Shown piece after piece: positions 10,329-40,426 of a DNA stretch of 64,000 bases (positions within the stretch are counted from its first letter, which is position 1; every line of letters begins with the position of its first letter). The notes beneath the pieces were generated by a model. That model was not told the origin of the DNA. It saw only the letters and a program-made list of their open reading frames with translations, and made no database searches. The DNA is taken from positions 62,001 to 126,000 of the forward strand of contig DATKRS010000019.1 in assembly GCA_035532035.1 (NCBI GenBank), read 5' to 3'. Made by a program: the position numbers and the translations under genes. The stretch is from Candidatus Dormiibacterota bacterium. Lineage in GTDB: Bacteria > Vulcanimicrobiota > Vulcanimicrobiia > Vulcanimicrobiales > Vulcanimicrobiaceae.

Positions 10329-10603
10329 GGCTCTCGCGACTTTCGAAGGTCCAGCAAGAGAATGTCGTCGGACGAACAGCCGCAGTGATGCGCGATCCGA
10401 CGCAAAATGGTTGCGGACGGCACCATCCTTCCGCGTTCGTACTCGCTCCACGTGACGGGATGGATTCCGACGGCGGCAGACGCCTGCTTCTGCGTCTCGC
10501 CTCGCAGGACACGCCACTCCCGTAGAGTCCGTGCTTTGGCCATGAGTTCGAGCATACTATAGGGCTTTTGGCCATGTCTCGCAATTGCTTTGGCGAGATT
10601 CAT
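10325..10603 (-). CDS. Xre-family helix-turn-helix regulator
   Basis: Up to 92 aa with one Cro/C1-type HTH (residues about 27-80). GETQKQASAAVGIHPVTWSE and YERGRMVPSATILRRIAHHC follow the HTH_3 pattern. The N-terminus is uncertain: ATG at 10603, 10555 or 10543 would all keep the domain. It is transcribed away from a second Xre gene at 10659 across 55 bp that contain an inverted repeat, so cross- or autoregulation is likely. It is coupled to a 60-aa gene downstream. Confidence 0.8.
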   Translation of the reverse strand: MNLAKAIARHGQKPYSMLELMAKARTLREWRVLRGETQKQASAAVGIHPVTWSEYERGRMVPSATILRRIAHHCGCSSDDILLLDLRKSREP

Positions 10604-10608
10604 TCCTG

Positions 10609-10647
10609 TAAGTTTGCCCTTTCACTAAAAGACCGGTGGAAAACTTA
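10609..10647. promoter_or_regulatory. Inverted repeat between divergent Xre genes
   Basis: TAAGTTT at 10609-10615 is mirrored by AAACTTA at 10641-10647, with 25 bp between the arms. The site fills most of the 55-bp divergent intergenic region. Position and symmetry fit an operator for one or both Xre proteins. This is seen in the sequence; the binding is inferred. Confidence 0.5.
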
Positions 10648-10658
10648 GCGAATCGACT

Positions 10659-11060
10659 ATGATGCCTAAGAAGCGCGCCCGTCGCGGCGACACGTTTCCC
10701 AAAGAGCTCGGCGCGAATATCCGCCTCTGGCGCGAAGAGCGCCGCCTCACGCAGCGCGAGCTGAGCGCCGCGGCGCGGTACGATCTCGCGCAGCTCTCCT
10801 CCGTCGAAGGTGGGAAGGCGGTTCCGCGCGCGGATGCGCTTCGGCGCATCGCCGACGTTCTCGACGTCTCCCTCGATCGGTTGTGCGGGCGCCCGTCGTT
10901 CACGGCGGGTGAAGCGGAAACGGGATCACGTTCTGCCGATCGGTTGCTCTCCGTCGGAAACATCGCGATTGCGGAGGAACTACGTGATTTGCGCCGGCGC
11001 CTCGAACGGATGGAAGCGTGGCGCGTGAGCCGTACAGCACGGCCTCGAAGCAGCACATAG
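10659..11060 (+). CDS. Xre-family helix-turn-helix regulator with C-terminal helix
   Basis: A 133-aa protein with a Cro/C1-type HTH at about residues 17-72 (ELGANIRLWREERRLTQREL, then LSSVEGGKAVPRADALRRIA) and a C-terminal charged helix (EELRDLRRRLERMEAW) that may mediate dimerisation. It is divergent from the Xre gene ending at 10325. There are two adjacent ATG codons at 10659 and 10662. The 94 bp after it, up to the convergent msrB gene, hold nothing I can name. Confidence 0.82.
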   Translation: MMPKKRARRGDTFPKELGANIRLWREERRLTQRELSAAARYDLAQLSSVEGGKAVPRADALRRIADVLDVSLDRLCGRPSFTAGEAETGSRSADRLLSVGNIAIAEELRDLRRRLERMEAWRVSRTARPRSST

Positions 11061-11154
11061 CAAAGGCAAGACGGTCGCATTCATCGTTGTACATACGCTC
11101 ATCATGGCGCGCTGACGTGCCGACTGTATGGCACTACGATGACGCAAGTTTTCG

Positions 11155-11568
11155 CTACTGCTCGGGCGTGAAGTTCAAGGCCAGCGAGTTGATGCAGTAG
11201 CGCGTGTTCCGCGGTCCCGGTCCGTCGTCGAAGACGTGGCCTAGATGTGAGTCGCAGCGCTTGCAACGCACTTCGATGCGGTGCACTCCCAAACTGTCAT
11301 CGTCGACGAGCCTGACGTTCTCTTGTTGTTCCGGATGCGTGAAGCTCGGCCAGCCGCAATGCGATTCGAATTTCGCCTCCGACGAGAAGAGTGCGGCGCC
11401 GCACGCTCCGCATCTATACGCGCCCTCCGCATCCACGTCGAGCAGCGCCCCGGTGAACGGCCGCTCCGTACCGGCTCGACGCAGCACGCGATAGCGCTCT
11501 TCGCCAAGCTCGGTCCTCCATTGCTCTTCCGGCTTCACCACCGCAGGATTCGCATCTCCATGCTCCAT
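11155..11568 (-). CDS. msrB: Peptide-methionine (R)-S-oxide reductase
   Basis: Reduces methionine-R-sulfoxide in proteins. The 137-aa product has the zinc-binding pairs CGAC and CKRC, the motif HCGWPSF, and RYCINS containing the catalytic cysteine. The ATG at 11568 is chosen because AAGGAGG lies 6 nt upstream and the length fits a single-domain MsrB. No export signal is seen, so it is probably cytoplasmic. It is divergent from the transketolase genes. Confidence 0.96.
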   Translation of the reverse strand: MEHGDANPAVVKPEEQWRTELGEERYRVLRRAGTERPFTGALLDVDAEGAYRCGACGAALFSSEAKFESHCGWPSFTHPEQQENVRLVDDDSLGVHRIEVRCKRCDSHLGHVFDDGPGPRNTRYCINSLALNFTPEQ

Positions 11569-11620
11569 CGTTGCCTCCTTCGCCATCGGCCCTGAAGGGC
11601 TTGTCGGGGAGAAGCCGGTA

Positions 11621-12484
11621 TTGCGCCGCATGGCTCTCTCCCCCGAGCGCGTCACGGAGCTGAAACTGCGCGCCAACGACGTACGCCAAGGCATCATTCG
11701 CGCTCTGCTCTCCGCAGGGTCCGGTCATTCCGCCGGACCTCTCGACATGGCGGACGTCTTCGCGGCGCTCTACTTTCATCTCTTGCGGCACGATCCGAAG
11801 AGCCCCGGCTGGCCAGAGCGCGACCGGCTGCTGCTCTCGTGCGGACACATCGTGCCCGTGCAGTACTCGGCCATGGCGTATGCGGGATACTTCCCCGTCG
11901 ACGAGCTGCTAACGCTGCGCAAGTTCGGAACGCGTCTCCAGGGCCACCCTGAACGCGTCCGGTTACCTGGCACCGAGACGACCTCCGGACCACTGGGCGA
12001 AGGGCTCGCGCAAGGCGTCGGCATGGCGCTCGCCGCAAAGACCGACGGGAAGTCATGGCGCGTCTACGTCGTGACGTCCGACGCGGAGCATCAGTGTGGT
12101 CTCCACTGGGAAGCCATGCTTACCGGCGCCAAGTTCAAGCTCGACAACCTCATCAGCATCGTCGATCGCAACCTCATCCAGATCGACGGCAGCACGGAGG
12201 ACGTCATGCCGCTAGAGCCGCTCGCCGACAAATACCGCGCCTTCAACTGGGAGGTCTTCGAGTGCGACGGCAACGATATCGTCGCCTTCATCGATACCGT
12301 GGAACGCGCTCAGCGAGTCACGGGCAAACCCTCGGTCGTCATCGCGCACACCGTGCCCGGCAAAGGCGTCTCGTACATGGAAGGCGACTACACGTGGCAT
12401 GGCAAGCCGCCGAACAGCACGCAAGCAGACGTCGCGCTGAACGAGTTGGAGGCGGAGCGGACGAGGATTTTAGCCCATGCGTAG
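11621..12484 (+). CDS. Transketolase, N-terminal (TPP-binding) subunit
   Basis: First half of a split transketolase. It has the N-terminal core SAGSGHSAGPLDMAD, HPERVRLPGTETTSGPLGEG, and a TPP/metal loop where the usual GDGE reads SDAEHQCGLHWEA, followed by the conserved NLISIVDRN. The TTG at 11621 has GGGGAG 9 nt upstream, and ATG at 11630 is an alternative. It overlaps the C-terminal-half gene by 8 nt. Together they would exchange two-carbon units in the pentose phosphate pathway, although split transketolase-like pairs sometimes act on other ketose substrates. Confidence 0.9.
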   Translation: MRRMALSPERVTELKLRANDVRQGIIRALLSAGSGHSAGPLDMADVFAALYFHLLRHDPKSPGWPERDRLLLSCGHIVPVQYSAMAYAGYFPVDELLTLRKFGTRLQGHPERVRLPGTETTSGPLGEGLAQGVGMALAAKTDGKSWRVYVVTSDAEHQCGLHWEAMLTGAKFKLDNLISIVDRNLIQIDGSTEDVMPLEPLADKYRAFNWEVFECDGNDIVAFIDTVERAQRVTGKPSVVIAHTVPGKGVSYMEGDYTWHGKPPNSTQADVALNELEAERTRILAHA

Positions 12485-27269: not shown

Positions 27270-27298
27270 TTGACCCCGAGTGGGGTCACGCGTTATGC
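27270..27298 (+). promoter_or_regulatory. Toxin-antitoxin promoter with spacer operator
   Basis: TTGACC (27270-27275) and TTATGC (27293-27298) are spaced by 17 bp. The palindrome GACCCC-GAGT-GGGGTC at 27272-27287 lies across the -35 box and spacer, as expected for antitoxin autorepression. The antitoxin ATG at 27307 is 9 nt after the -10 box, so this mRNA also looks leaderless. Confidence 0.6.
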
Positions 27299-27306
27299 TC
27301 GGGGCA

Positions 27307-27552
27307 ATGGCAGACCTCAAAGTGCGTAACCTCGACGACCGCATTGCCGCAAGCTTGCGAGTGCGCGCAAAGCACCACGGCGTTTCGCTCGAAGAGGAGG
27401 CGCGCCGCGTGCTCGGCAGCTCCGTGATCTGGCGGCGAAGTGCCGTCGTCCGGCGTGCGGCAGCCCTACGTGCAGCTGCGGGGTCGCCACCAAAGGATCG
27501 GGATCTCGATAGCGCTCGCATCATACGGCAAGAACGCGATGCCCGGGGCTGA
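27307..27552 (+). CDS. FitA-like ribbon-helix-helix antitoxin
   Basis: 81 aa with an N-terminal ribbon-helix-helix of the FitA/VapB class (MADLKVRNLDDRIAASLRVR, then HGVSLEEEARRVL) and a disordered charged C-terminus that would wrap around the toxin. It overlaps the PIN toxin gene by 14 nt. Starts at 27280 and 27295 are possible, but 27307 aligns with family N-termini. Confidence 0.85.
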   Translation: MADLKVRNLDDRIAASLRVRAKHHGVSLEEEARRVLGSSVIWRRSAVVRRAAALRAAAGSPPKDRDLDSARIIRQERDARG

Positions 27553-27982
27553 CGAGCCGTCCTCTGCCGTCCTCGACGCCTCAGTAGCTGTTCGCTGGCT
27601 CGTGCCGGAGCGGGGGAGCGACGAGGCAGCGGCTCTCATGGAACGGCCAGTCACCTGGATCGCGCCGCGCCTGCTGGTTACGGAGGTTGCTTCGGCGCTG
27701 CGCCGCAAGGTCGTCGCGAACGAGCTGCGCGTCGAACATGCGGTTCAGGCGCTCGCAATCCTTGGACAAGCCGCCTCGGACGGCATCGTGCAGTTCGTCC
27801 AGGATGAAGACCTCGTCGCGCCTGCACTCATGCTTGCGCTCACGCTCGAGCACAAGGTTCCGGATTGCGTGTATCTTGCGCTCGCGCAGCGCGACGGCGC
27901 CGCGCTGGCTACGGCCGATCTGACGTTATCTCGACTCGCGGAGAATCAGGGAACGCCGGTTCTTCTCCTGCCCTCTGCCTGA
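27539..27982 (+). CDS. vapC: PIN-domain ribonuclease toxin (VapC/FitB-like)
   Basis: A 147-aa PIN domain with acidic active-site positions: D in VLDASVAVRWL, E in VTEVASALRR, D in VPDCVYLALA, and D in ATADLTLSRLA. It is expected to cleave tRNA or other RNA when not bound by the upstream antitoxin. The ATG at 27539 lies within the antitoxin's last codons. The pair ends 50 bp before the mobile-element boundary but is outside it. Confidence 0.9.
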   Translation: MPGADEPSSAVLDASVAVRWLVPERGSDEAAALMERPVTWIAPRLLVTEVASALRRKVVANELRVEHAVQALAILGQAASDGIVQFVQDEDLVAPALMLALTLEHKVPDCVYLALAQRDGAALATADLTLSRLAENQGTPVLLLPSA

Positions 27983-27998
27983 GTGCGCCTTTGAAAAT

Positions 27999-28025
27999 CG
28001 AGAAGCCCCGTATCGAGGCTTCTCG
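27999..28025 (-). terminator. Original terminator of tRNA-Asn, now displaced
   Basis: A perfect 9-bp stem (CGAGAAGCC / GGCTTCTCG) with a 9-nt loop lies 6 nt beyond the 3' end of the left tRNA-Asn fragment. On the minus strand it is followed by ATTTTC. It fits the terminator that served tRNA-Asn before the element was inserted. Confidence 0.6.
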
Positions 28026-28031
28026 AAAAGC

Positions 28032-28076
28032 TGGCTCCGGATGTTGGACTCGAACCAACGACCCGCTGATTAACAG
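28032..28076 (-). repeat. Left attachment site: displaced 3' half of tRNA-Asn
   Basis: 45 bp that match the 3' 45 nt (anticodon arm to CCA) of the intact tRNA-Asn at 40351-40395 in 43 positions. The two differences (28044, 28058) are the two partners of one T-stem base pair (U-A here, C-G in the intact gene), so both copies fold. The longest identical block is the 18 bp at 28059-28076, the likely crossover zone. Confidence 0.9.
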
Positions 28077-28185
28077 GGCGCGAAAGTAGTCCCAGCGAGT
28101 CACTGAGAGTCACGGCGAGCCTCGTCTCCTGAGGGAAATGGGGCTCGCCTGTCACGTTAAGCACCATCCTTTCACCGCGTTTCCC

Positions 28186-28210
28186 GACTTCTTGTGACCA
28201 AACGGTGACC
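28186..28210 (+). repeat. Arm-type direct repeat, left copy
   Basis: 25 bp that recur at 40246-40270 near the other end of the element in the same orientation, with 23 matches. The core holds GTGACC twice, 11 bp apart. In the excised circle the two copies would flank the core site, as arm-type integrase-binding sites do. Confidence 0.65.
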
Positions 28211-28957: not shown

Positions 28958-29155
28958 ATGCGAGACCATGCCGACCGCTTCATCGAGCGGCTCGATTCGC
29001 TCATCCTTTCCGGGCGCAGTAGCTTCGAGATAGGCCGCACCCTCGGAATCAGAGACACTTCAGTCCGGCAACGTCGCCGTAAGCTGCGCCAGGCCGGACT
29101 CCTACCCTTCTTCGAGAGGCCAACTCCGCATGTCCGTAACCAAGAACTTCGTTAA
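28958..29155 (+). CDS. Small helix-turn-helix protein
   Basis: A 65-aa basic protein with a single HTH (SSFEIGRTLGIRDTSVRQRR) preceded by a helix. It overlaps the replication-protein gene by 26 nt and is the first gene after the strong promoter at 28763. It may regulate replication. No closer family is recognised. Confidence 0.65.
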   Translation: MRDHADRFIERLDSLILSGRSSFEIGRTLGIRDTSVRQRRRKLRQAGLLPFFERPTPHVRNQELR

Positions 29156-30350
29156 AGCCCCAAACCACTTACTCACAGACTCGACGCTCGACGTGCGCTG
29201 CCGACTGCTCGCGTTGCGCCTGCTGCACTACGCGCGCGACAAGGCGACGTGCTGGCCGTCGCAGCAGAAGCTCGCCGATGACCTTGGATGGCCGCTCATC
29301 ACCACGAAGCGCCACTTCGAGCACCTGCGCTCTCAGGGACGCATCGGCGTTCGGCGCAAGGCACGCGACAAGCAGAAGCGCGAAGGCGTCCTGAACGTGT
29401 ACGACGTTTCGGCGCTCAAGGCCGGGACCAAAGTATCACAGGTGATCCCTAGGTCCGGGGATGACCAAGGTATCGCGAGTGATACGTTGGTCGAGTGGAC
29501 CAACGTATCAAATCGCATCGACCAAAGTATCAAAAGCGATCACGACCAAAGTATCTCCAGTGAGCCAGTAATCAGACTCAGGGAAATAGATACAAAAGAA
29601 AAAGACAGATTGCGCACGCTCGACTCAGCAGCGAATGCCAGTGCCGAGCCGGATCGTGACGATGAGTTCGGATCGTGTGCTGAGTCTGAAGCCCGCGAGC
29701 TAGAGCCAGCACCGAATGCCGCTGCTGGAGACGAGCCGGATGGTTTCGATTGTTCGGCTGAGACTGAGACCGTCGCGCACGGCTCCGATGCGACAATCGG
29801 CACCACGATGGGTGATCCTCTTCAGAACCAAACGCATTGCGAACCGGAACCTACGTTCCGGTTGGGAGACGAGCGCAGCGCTGCGATAGCGTCGCCGTTC
29901 TATCAGCAGCACGGCCTCGGGATCGCGCCGGAAGATGCCGGTCTCGACTGGGTCAAGACCACGCTGTACGATCCCGGCTTCGGAGCGACGTGGTACGAAG
30001 AGCCTAACGCCTCGCTGATAAATGACTGGCTCGAGCAGTTGCCCGAAGCCATCGTCGCGACCGAGATGCTCCTCACGCGACTCTGGAACGCGCAGCGCAC
30101 CGGCAAGGACTGCCCGATTAGGAAGCCCGTCCCGTATGTCGCCAAGATCGTAGCCAACGGCGACCGTCCCACGAAGAACGAGCACGCTATCGCCTTGACG
30201 ATGAAACGTGAACGCGAGGTCGTCGGATGGGTCGAGGAAATCGAGGATATGGGGGGCTTAAAAGGCTTCATGAGCCTTGACGACGTACCCGAGCACTTGC
30301 GCGACGACGTGAAGCGCGCCATAGAGCAAGAAACGGGCGCCGCAGCATGA
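29130..30350 (+). CDS. Replication-initiator-like protein with N-terminal winged helix
   Basis: 406 aa. The N-terminal 75 residues form an HTH_36-type winged helix (TCWPSQQKLADDLGWPLITT) as in phage and plasmid replication proteins. A low-complexity acidic middle (residues 100-250) is followed by a C-terminal domain with conserved-looking VGWVEEIEDMGGLKGFMS. The gene contains a five-copy iteron array at the DNA level (29426-29565) followed by an A-rich stretch, like the origin inside lambda gene O. ATGA couples it to the next gene. Replication role is inferred. Confidence 0.7.
   Translation: MSVTKNFVKAPNHLLTDSTLDVRCRLLALRLLHYARDKATCWPSQQKLADDLGWPLITTKRHFEHLRSQGRIGVRRKARDKQKREGVLNVYDVSALKAGTKVSQVIPRSGDDQGIASDTLVEWTNVSNRIDQSIKSDHDQSISSEPVIRLREIDTKEKDRLRTLDSAANASAEPDRDDEFGSCAESEARELEPAPNAAAGDEPDGFDCSAETETVAHGSDATIGTTMGDPLQNQTHCEPEPTFRLGDERSAAIASPFYQQHGLGIAPEDAGLDWVKTTLYDPGFGATWYEEPNASLINDWLEQLPEAIVATEMLLTRLWNAQRTGKDCPIRKPVPYVAKIVANGDRPTKNEHAIALTMKREREVVGWVEEIEDMGGLKGFMSLDDVPEHLRDDVKRAIEQETGAAA
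29426..29565. repeat. Iteron array inside the replication gene (candidate origin)
   Basis: GACCAANGTATC occurs at 29426, 29463, 29498, 29520 and 29544, and once in reverse at 29481-29492, which makes a perfect 12-bp palindrome arm pair with the third copy (5-bp loop). Copies 1 and 3 lie in a different codon phase from copies 2, 4 and 5, so the repetition is selected as DNA, not as protein. The last copies are spaced 22-24 bp. An A-rich stretch (29580-29605) follows. Confidence 0.8.
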
Positions 30351-38789: not shown

Positions 38790-38877
38790 CCGTAGGGCCG
38801 TAGGGCGCGACCAAGGTAAACCAAACTTGCATACACGATCCAAGCGGGACGAAAGCTCGTCGCCGCTTTCTGCAAAC

Positions 38878-39072
38878 ATGCCCGAGCACAAGCGTCTTAC
38901 CATGACCGTGGCTGAGGCCGCTGGAATGCTTGGCATCGGAATAAATACCGCCTATGAGGCCGTGAGGCGCGGAGAACTTCCCGCCGTGCGTTTCGGAAGG
39001 CGCGTAGTGGTCCCGATAGCCGGGCTTGAAAGTGTCCTCCGTATGGACGCCGAACCGACCGGCACCGCCTGA
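38878..39072 (+). CDS. xis: Excisionase-family DNA-binding protein
   Basis: 64 aa from ATG 38878. The sequence TMTVAEAAGMLGIGINTAYE AVRRGELPAVRFGRRVVVPI (winged HTH_17, MerR-like) is the common 'excisionase family' domain. It precedes the integrase gene by 31 bp, as directionality factors often do. It would bend the attachment DNA to favour excision and may also regulate the integrase. Confidence 0.85.
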   Translation: MPEHKRLTMTVAEAAGMLGIGINTAYEAVRRGELPAVRFGRRVVVPIAGLESVLRMDAEPTGTA

Positions 39073-39103: not shown

Positions 39104-40420
39104 TTGCAAGTCAAGGCCAAAGCACGCGGCGACAAGTGGAGCGTGCTCATTGACCTGCCACGCAAGAACGGAAGGCGGAAGCAGAAACGCTTTACCTCGC
39201 GCACTAAGGGCGAAACCGAGCGACTCGCGCTGAAGTACCTGGCCGAAGCTAAGGCAAAGAAAGCACAACCGCAGACGCGAACAGTCGGCGATCTACTCGA
39301 TGCGTGGTTGGCCGACGTGCGCCCTTCGATTGAATCGCGGACTTACGCTTCATACGAAAGCGTGGTCCGGCTGTATCTACGACCAGAGCTAGGTCCCGAT
39401 AGACTCTGCGAGCTATCGGCAGAGGCAATCTCTTCCGCGCGAGACGCTTGGATGAGCGCCAGCCGCAAGGATAAGCGAAAGGGGACAATCTCAGGAACCA
39501 CGGCCCGATATGTCCTCCGCACCCTTAAAACGGCGCTCACGTTTGGGATAGAGCGTAAATGGCTGGACGAGAATCCCGCCAGGTACGTCAAACCCCCAAA
39601 AGCGTCCGAGTCAGAGAAGCGGCCATTAGAGGCAGAGGAAGTACGCTCGCTGCTTTCCGCTGCAAGAAACACGGCTCTGTTCTGCCCTGTCCTAATCGCC
39701 TTATACTCCGGCGTTCGGCGAGGCGAACTGCTCGCAGTTAAGTGGGAGGACTTCGACCTCGTGGATGGCTCCCTCACTGTGCGACGCTCGCTAGAAGTTG
39801 ACAGACTGGACGGCTACGCCATCAAAGAGAAGGCGCCAAAAAGCGCGTCGAGCAAACGCGCCATACCGATTCCGGCCTCGGTCGTTGAGGAGCTTCGAGA
39901 GTACAAAGTCGCTCAAGCACAGCGACTGCAGGTTCTGGGCTTGGATCAGGAGTCAGAGACCCTGGTCTTTGATCGTGGGGACGGCCAGCCGTGGCACCCG
40001 GATACATTCGGCCAAGCGTGGATCGAGTTCGCAAAGACGTGCGGCGTGCGTCGGGTTCGATTCCATGACCTAAGGGCTACGTTCGCAAGCCTGCTCATCG
40101 AAGCGGGAGTCGATCCGGTAACAGTGCAGCACTTCCTTGGACACTCGACCCTGAACATGACGATGCGCGTCTATGCCAAGGCCACGACGCGAGCGAAGCG
40201 TGCTGCTGCAGACCGGCTCGAAGCCTCGCTCATGCAGCCGTCCGAGACTTCCTGTGACCAAATGGTGACCAGAACGTCGGACACGCTCGCTTGCGCAATC
40301 CCTACAAAAGCGAAAACCCTCGACAAATCAAGGGTTTCCACTCCTGTAAGTGGCTCCGGATGCTGGACTCGAACCAGCGACCCGCTGATTAACAGTCAGC
40401 TGCTCTACCAACTGAGCTAA
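39104..40420 (+). CDS. int: Tyrosine recombinase / integrase of the element
   Basis: 438 aa from TTG 39104 (AAGGAG with 7-nt spacing). It has an N-terminal arm-binding domain, a SAM-like core-binding domain (about 65-155), and a catalytic domain with R in YSGVRRGELLAVKW, H-x-x-R in HDLRATFASLL, then GHSTLNMTMRVY with the tyrosine. The last 20 or so codons run through attR and the tRNA-Asn gene in antisense. The stop codon lies in chromosomal tRNA sequence, so excision would change the C-terminus. Confidence 0.95.
   Translation: MQVKAKARGDKWSVLIDLPRKNGRRKQKRFTSRTKGETERLALKYLAEAKAKKAQPQTRTVGDLLDAWLADVRPSIESRTYASYESVVRLYLRPELGPDRLCELSAEAISSARDAWMSASRKDKRKGTISGTTARYVLRTLKTALTFGIERKWLDENPARYVKPPKASESEKRPLEAEEVRSLLSAARNTALFCPVLIALYSGVRRGELLAVKWEDFDLVDGSLTVRRSLEVDRLDGYAIKEKAPKSASSKRAIPIPASVVEELREYKVAQAQRLQVLGLDQESETLVFDRGDGQPWHPDTFGQAWIEFAKTCGVRRVRFHDLRATFASLLIEAGVDPVTVQHFLGHSTLNMTMRVYAKATTRAKRAAADRLEASLMQPSETSCDQMVTRTSDTLACAIPTKAKTLDKSRVSTPVSGSGCWTRTSDPLINSQLLYQLS
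40246..40270 (+). repeat. Arm-type direct repeat, right copy
   Basis: Second copy of the 25-bp repeat at 28186 (23 matches), here inside the 3' part of the integrase gene, about 80 bp from the core site. Confidence 0.65.
40314..40337 (-). terminator. Element-supplied terminator for tRNA-Asn
   Basis: AAACCCT (40314-40320) and AGGGTTT (40331-40337) form a 7-bp stem, 13 nt beyond the tRNA 3' end on the minus strand, followed by TCGCTTTTG. It replaces the original hairpin at 27999 that insertion removed from the tRNA. It overlaps the integrase gene in antisense. Confidence 0.5.
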
Positions 40421-40426
40421 TCCGGA
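40351..40426 (-). tRNA. tRNA-Asn (GTT)
   Basis: 76 nt with encoded CCA. It has a 7-bp acceptor stem (TCCGGAT/ATCCGGA), D-arm GCTC...GAGC, anticodon arm GCTGA-CTGTTAA-TCAGC with anticodon GTT, and T-arm GCTGG-TTCGAGT-CCAGC. The 5' part is chromosomal. The 3' 45 nt coincide with the element's attachment repeat, so the gene was rebuilt by the integration. Confidence 0.97.

Follow-up and report, generated by a model that had tools for sequence, protein, structure and literature searches.

The integrase gene of a 12.3-kb element inserted in a tRNA-Asn gene was found to run in frame through its own attachment core, such that integration replaces the last residues of the protein. Taking the results jointly, it is probable that this exchange is a neutral by-product in the element analysed, while in a clade of related integrases associated with tRNA-Glu the same layout is a selected feature that brings with it a conserved acidic C-terminus. 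A broader reading, to which we give slightly better than even chances, is that there is a bacterial family of tyrosine integrases with a built-in integration-state switch, in which an acidic C-terminus is encoded by the circular attP form only; the element analysed shares this layout but lacks the acidic tail.

Integration exchanges the C-terminus encoded by the integrase gene

The window (the whole stretch of DNA analysed, 64,000 nucleotides) contains an element flanked by two 45-bp att cores, which form a direct repeat with 2 mismatches, both at a compensated pair of the T-stem (Table 1). The element has the make-up of a tRNA-targeting genomic island, i.e. an intact tRNA gene, a displaced 3′ fragment of that gene and an internal integrase. 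The integrase frame begins at a TTG codon preceded by AAAGGAG, and its stop codon (40418–40420) falls within the antisense strand of the tRNA-Asn(GTT) gene. The original prediction that this frame crosses attR and ends in chromosomal, tRNA-encoded sequence (SQLLYQLS) was right in both coordinates and residues. Reading the same frame at the left core (…DPLIN-RARK-stop, ending at 28089) confirmed that it also continues there past the core and into element DNA. A different tail on the excised circle had been predicted as well, and joining the ends in silico bore this out: the circle would encode an integrase of 434 aa ending in PLIN-RARK, and the integrated element encodes one of 438 aa ending in PLIN-SQLLYQLS. 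The frame that passes through both cores is that of the integrase. A match of this kind follows automatically; what is not trivial is solely that no stop interrupts the integrase frame ahead of or within the core. The two tails are of very different character, LLYQLS (integrated form) being hydrophobic and RARK (circle form) basic.

A genome of the same genus (G004) was found to have a tRNA-Asn gene with a homologous right flank and no such element beside it. The 3′ part of this gene is identical to the attL copy, which suggests that the attL copy represents the original tRNA end and that the exchange would have taken place within the 18 bp of the core on the anticodon side. The attR version of the tRNA end was present in other genomes of the genus.

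Table 1. Positions in the window of the integrase gene, its target and the associated DNA features.
Feature	Position	Strand	Basis or remark
Element DNA completing the circle tail, RARK-stop	28077–28089	+	
attL core, displaced tRNA-Asn 3′ half	28032–28076		Direct repeat D2, 96%; letters equal to the 3′ part of tRNA-Asn in sister genome G004
Probable original terminator, a hairpin adjoining the displaced tRNA end	27985–28031	−	−25.3 kcal/mol, z −5.7
Left-end arm-type repeat, 110 nt from the core	28186–28210		Direct repeat D8; putative role
Small HTH_17 protein, excisionase-like, directly upstream of int	38827–39072	+	PF12728, phrog_66
Tyrosine integrase gene, integrated form, 438 aa plus stop	39104–40420	+	PF00589, phrog_1, reading frame
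C-terminal extension, residues 381–438, predicted disordered; overlaps the arm-type repeat, hairpin and tRNA gene	40244–40420	+	pLDDT <50
Arm-type repeat within int, reads CDQMVT	40246–40270		Direct repeat D8; putative role
Hairpin adjoining the tRNA 3′ end, antisense to int codons, probable tRNA terminator	40304–40345	−	−23.7 kcal/mol, z −7.0
attR core, 45 bp, 3′ half of the minus-strand tRNA-Asn	40351–40395		Direct repeat D2
tRNA-Asn(GTT), target gene, restored by the element	40351–40426	−	ARAGORN
Chromosomal DNA completing the integrated tail, SQLLYQLS-stop	40396–40420	+	

The 3′ end of the integrase gene carries more than codons

The integrase matched PF00589 (residues 175–361, E 1.1e-23), PF14659 and phrog_1, and has the R, K, HxxR, H and Y of a tyrosine recombinase catalytic domain; these residues (R206, K243, H321, R324, H347 and Y357) were invariant among its relatives. 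The catalytic Tyr357 lies 80 residues ahead of the swapped tail, and residues 381–438, which include both alternative tails, were predicted to be disordered, with a pLDDT of about 30. Since the arm-type repeat, a hairpin and the tRNA 3′ half all lie on the DNA encoding this region, the 3′ end of int carries attachment-site and probable tRNA-terminator functions as well as codons. The repeat (GACTTCYTGTGACCAAAYGGTGACC) is found as a single copy near each core, as arm-type sites would be. A strict terminator scan returned no site, although the hairpins fold strongly, so we infer the terminator role from the folding.

Several other features were observed in and around the element. Just to the right of the attL core (28097–28113) there is another short repeat pair, GAGTCACTGAGAGTCAC, which is similar to AAGTCACGGGAAAGTCACGG from the L112 integrase tail and is possibly a further Int or excisionase site. 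The ORF at 29130–30350 showed weak matches to phage replication-initiation/O-like families and contains, at 29426–29565, five copies of a 22-nt repeat (GACCAAAGTATCACAGGTGATC) that look like iterons within a replication gene (cf. the lambda origin). A DNA-invertase-like serine recombinase (PF00239; 35692–36570, minus strand) is present inside the element alongside the tyrosine integrase. Outside the element, beside attL, positions 27280–27982 encode a PIN-domain protein and a small upstream partner ORF, in a VapBC-like arrangement.

Read-through of the core in the window element is within chance

The survey covered around 90 related integrases of the class and of its relatives. Most of them end before the adjacent tRNA gene, typically 60–120 nt short of it, while a minority run into it. 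When the stretch between 40259 and the core was shuffled, 28% of the shuffles remained open, and of the three antisense frames of tRNA-Asn(GTT) one has no stop across the core; a single case of read-through is therefore not improbable. On a maximum-likelihood tree of 82 integrases, the label for read-through had to change several times independently. The window integrase grouped with L013, L055 and the long-branched L054; the two well-placed neighbours, L013 and L055, both stop ahead of the core. The RARK continuation was absent from the 14 other tRNA-Asn left ends compared; some tRNA-Asn left ends read LINR-stop, a plain stop just past the core.

With the open frame at chance level, the early stops of L013 and L055 and a RARK ending that is not shared, these comparisons do not support a selected tail switch in the window element. 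The exchange there is most likely a neutral by-product occurring in a disordered tail. Alternatively, the swap might regulate the window integrase, with LLYQLS (a possible degradation signal) and RARK conferring different stability or activity. The strong dissimilarity of the tails would fit with this, as would the selection that appears to act on the attP-form tail of related elements (see below) and the integration-dependent loss of a C-terminal tag known in mycobacteriophages (PMC9262239). Regulation of this kind is nonetheless unlikely, since the open frame and the nearest tree neighbours speak against it as above, neither tail is conserved, and the integrated tail is set by the tRNA sequence rather than by the element. 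The original prediction had likened the arrangement to integration-dependent control. Its change of tail stands, control in the window element is not supported, and the general idea finds support in the tRNA-Glu relatives. The proposed check for a frame conserved through the core was likewise positive in the tRNA-Glu clade and negative for L013 and L055.

Elements of the tRNA-Glu clade encode an acidic tail in their attP form

Integrases L010, L011, L042–L046 and L083 formed one supported clade (99/94), associated with tRNA-Glu, in which every member crosses the core in the same frame (reading VAPTGIE or a close variant). Integrase L087, which was outside the tree sample, reads through the core likewise. 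The window integrase falls outside this clade in the tree; it shares the open frame but not the acidic tail, its own being RARK, and it is about 32–36% identical to the clade over the full alignment, a distance at which the clade may say little about the window. The linkers ahead of the arm site, 14 to 40 codons long, were in frame in all four of the clade members measured. In L115 (12022–13434) and L116 (about 10600–11800), a CCTTCGACAGGCTCAGGGTGACACTG repeat was seen inserted in frame in the linker of the integrase tail.

The attP form of the clade integrases ends in ESESDDPDE-stop or variants of it, encoded at the far end of the element. When circles were made in silico by joining the int-side core to the far core, PVFAT-stop and PVLPP-stop, the tRNA-encoded tails of the integrated form, gave way to SESDDPDE-stop and SESGDDDE-stop. 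A pattern search for left ends of this type found 26 in 117 genomes; the reversed pattern returned no matches. The in-frame continuations were mostly short and acidic (SESDDDAG, SDSDDPDE, SETDGTDE, SECGDTDE, SEGDGDAE, SEPEESEET and others). The attP-form tails of the clade mostly end in D or E, and the acidic tail was predicted to be disordered. The genomes compared are drafts, in which contigs often end inside elements; pairs of integrase and left end were traced on single contigs in three genomes only (G098, G013 and G021). Direct junctions of an integrase with an acidic tail were seen in L112 and, beside an integrase fragment, in L154; a circular contig was sought for L112 and not found. 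The other left ends are tied to the tRNA-Glu family by the arm site alone.

Tandem arrays of elements were observed at tRNA-Glu (L101–L103, L110, L111, L116 and L117). A second type of left end, which reads GPGRSR, is found repeatedly next to the cores of these arrays; they also contain an integrase that ends short of the core, with GTTAGACGG-type repeats. The acidic left end of G033 sits in a tandem array in which the right-hand integrase stops before the core.

The acidic tail of the tRNA-Glu clade appears to be under selection

The acidic tail was analysed in 20 clustered left ends, excluding the codons fixed by the search pattern. At codons 3–8, acidic residues occupied 48 of 120 positions in the integrase frame, compared with 5 in each of the other two frames. 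In shuffles, which treat the clustered left ends as independent (true only approximately), 9.3 acidic residues were expected, with a maximum of 23 in 20,000; a stop at codon 8–10, present in 16 of the 20 left ends, was expected in 1.8 and seen in at most 7. The stops TAG, TGA and TAA were all in use, as were the acidic codons GAT, GAC, GAG and GAA. In control left ends from other element types, acidic residues numbered 0/30 and 2/94. A search for the arm site, made without reference to the tails, served as an independent test. It returned 13 matches at 118–120 nt from a tRNA-Glu-type core, every one of them acidic-tailed. A fourteenth arm-site left end, that of L220, adjoins a core other than tRNA-Glu and has the continuation SESAEAEE (14/14 acidic), which suggests that the tail can survive a switch of target; the L220 arm site is at position 1501 of the reverse complement.

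On the int side, the frame was kept into the core in eight of the nine arm-site matches; the ninth (G019) was frame-broken and also had in-frame stops. Since the spacing from arm site to core is fixed at 66 nt, this constancy does not prove that the clade sequence is coding, and it was not counted; the tests on the acidic tail were used in its place.

The same fixed spacing could be taken to mean that the acidic tails are a DNA-level feature, for instance a core-type or accessory protein site, that looks like a peptide only when translated. The first 5 nt past the core are, moreover, almost fixed (partly by the search pattern), and conserved DNA is also found at the left ends of other element types, which lack read-through integrases. 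This explanation is nevertheless quite improbable: it does not account for an enrichment limited to the integrase frame (48 versus 5 and 5), for the use of every acidic codon (four) and every stop codon (three), for values that shuffles never reached, or for the fact that left ends of the other types are not acidic. From the pattern of residues and codons, the acidic tail of the tRNA-Glu clade looks to be under selection.

What the tail might do is a separate matter. It may be a harmless, soluble ending that closes the frame of the circle quickly and has no regulatory role, in agreement with a stop kept about 8 codons beyond the core and with the predicted disorder. We regard this as rather doubtful, since a plain stop right past the core would do, as in some tRNA-Asn left ends, and since 40% acidic residues at codons 3–8 seems more than solubility would need. 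Tuning of the DNA binding of Int, or of its contacts with partners, would be the likeliest role, with a purely protective ending as the main alternative.

A model for the exchange of integrase tails

In the model proposed, the DNA lying between the codons of the catalytic domain and the core would serve as arm-type site, terminator-like hairpin and tRNA 3′ half. In the window element, the int frame would stay open over this stretch by chance, and integration would swap RARK for SQLLYQLS. In the tRNA-Glu clade, the far end of the element would provide the acidic C-terminus and its stop, which become contiguous with int only on the circle or at a junction between two elements, and integration would replace the acidic tail with a short, tRNA-encoded one. 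If the circle form is translated, the acidic tail may tune the Int of the free state, e.g. by weakening its DNA binding or altering its contacts with partners. Integrated and free elements would thus make different Int proteins, perhaps of different activity, from which the element might benefit.

Accessory factors and the occupancy of arm sites are the usual explanation for how a tyrosine integrase chooses between integration and excision. If the model is true, an integrase with a C-terminus rewritten by its own reaction would add a further, self-contained input to this choice. With a difference of only about ten residues between the two proteins, the idea is easy to test. A caution for annotation also follows, in that integrated copies report one of two natural C-termini.

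Comparison with known systems

A scan of a collection of genome contigs for direct relatives gave remote matches only (23–24% identity). In viral contigs, pattern scans for the tRNA-Glu left end and for the window left end found nothing, and an integrase search gave one weak locus. Phage and plasmid tyrosine integrases were at most about 34% identical among the matches listed. Thermus phages IN93 and Tsatsa, taken as comparators, are not cases of read-through, their integrases stopping before a tRNA-like core. A literature search, mostly of open-access papers, returned no report of a conserved or swapped integrase tail of this kind, which is weak evidence of absence.

The window element resembles the Islander-type tRNA-targeting islands (PMC4383910) in its tyrosine integrase, its restored tRNA gene and the displaced 3′ fragment at its far end. 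It differs from them in that its int frame crosses the core, while most of the integrases surveyed here stop before it.

In BPs-type phages (clusters G, N and P), attP lies within the repressor gene, and integration removes an ssrA-like tag, producing a stable repressor (PMC9262239). The present elements likewise have attP in a coding frame beside a tRNA target, with replacement of the C-terminus and restoration of the tRNA. Here, however, the gene is that of the integrase, and arm-type repeats, which BPs-type sites lack, are present. Integration-dependent immunity of the BPs type was rejected as an assignment, since the attP-form tail is RARK in the window and mostly ends in D or E in the tRNA-Glu clade, neither being ssrA-like nor carrying an LAA-like tag.

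In archaea, integrases of the SSV type are split and inactivated when the element integrates, and recombinases that disrupt themselves have been described as archaeal only (PMC8371274). The elements studied here share with these suicidal integrases an attachment site inside the integrase gene and the rewriting of that gene by integration, but only the last residues, beyond the catalytic tyrosine, are changed. The window integrase was not assigned to the SSV type, in view of the distance from Tyr357 to the swap and of its Pfam matches, which do not include PF16795. If the model proposed is true, these integrases would be a bacterial counterpart of both the mycobacteriophage split repressor and the self-splitting integrases of archaea.
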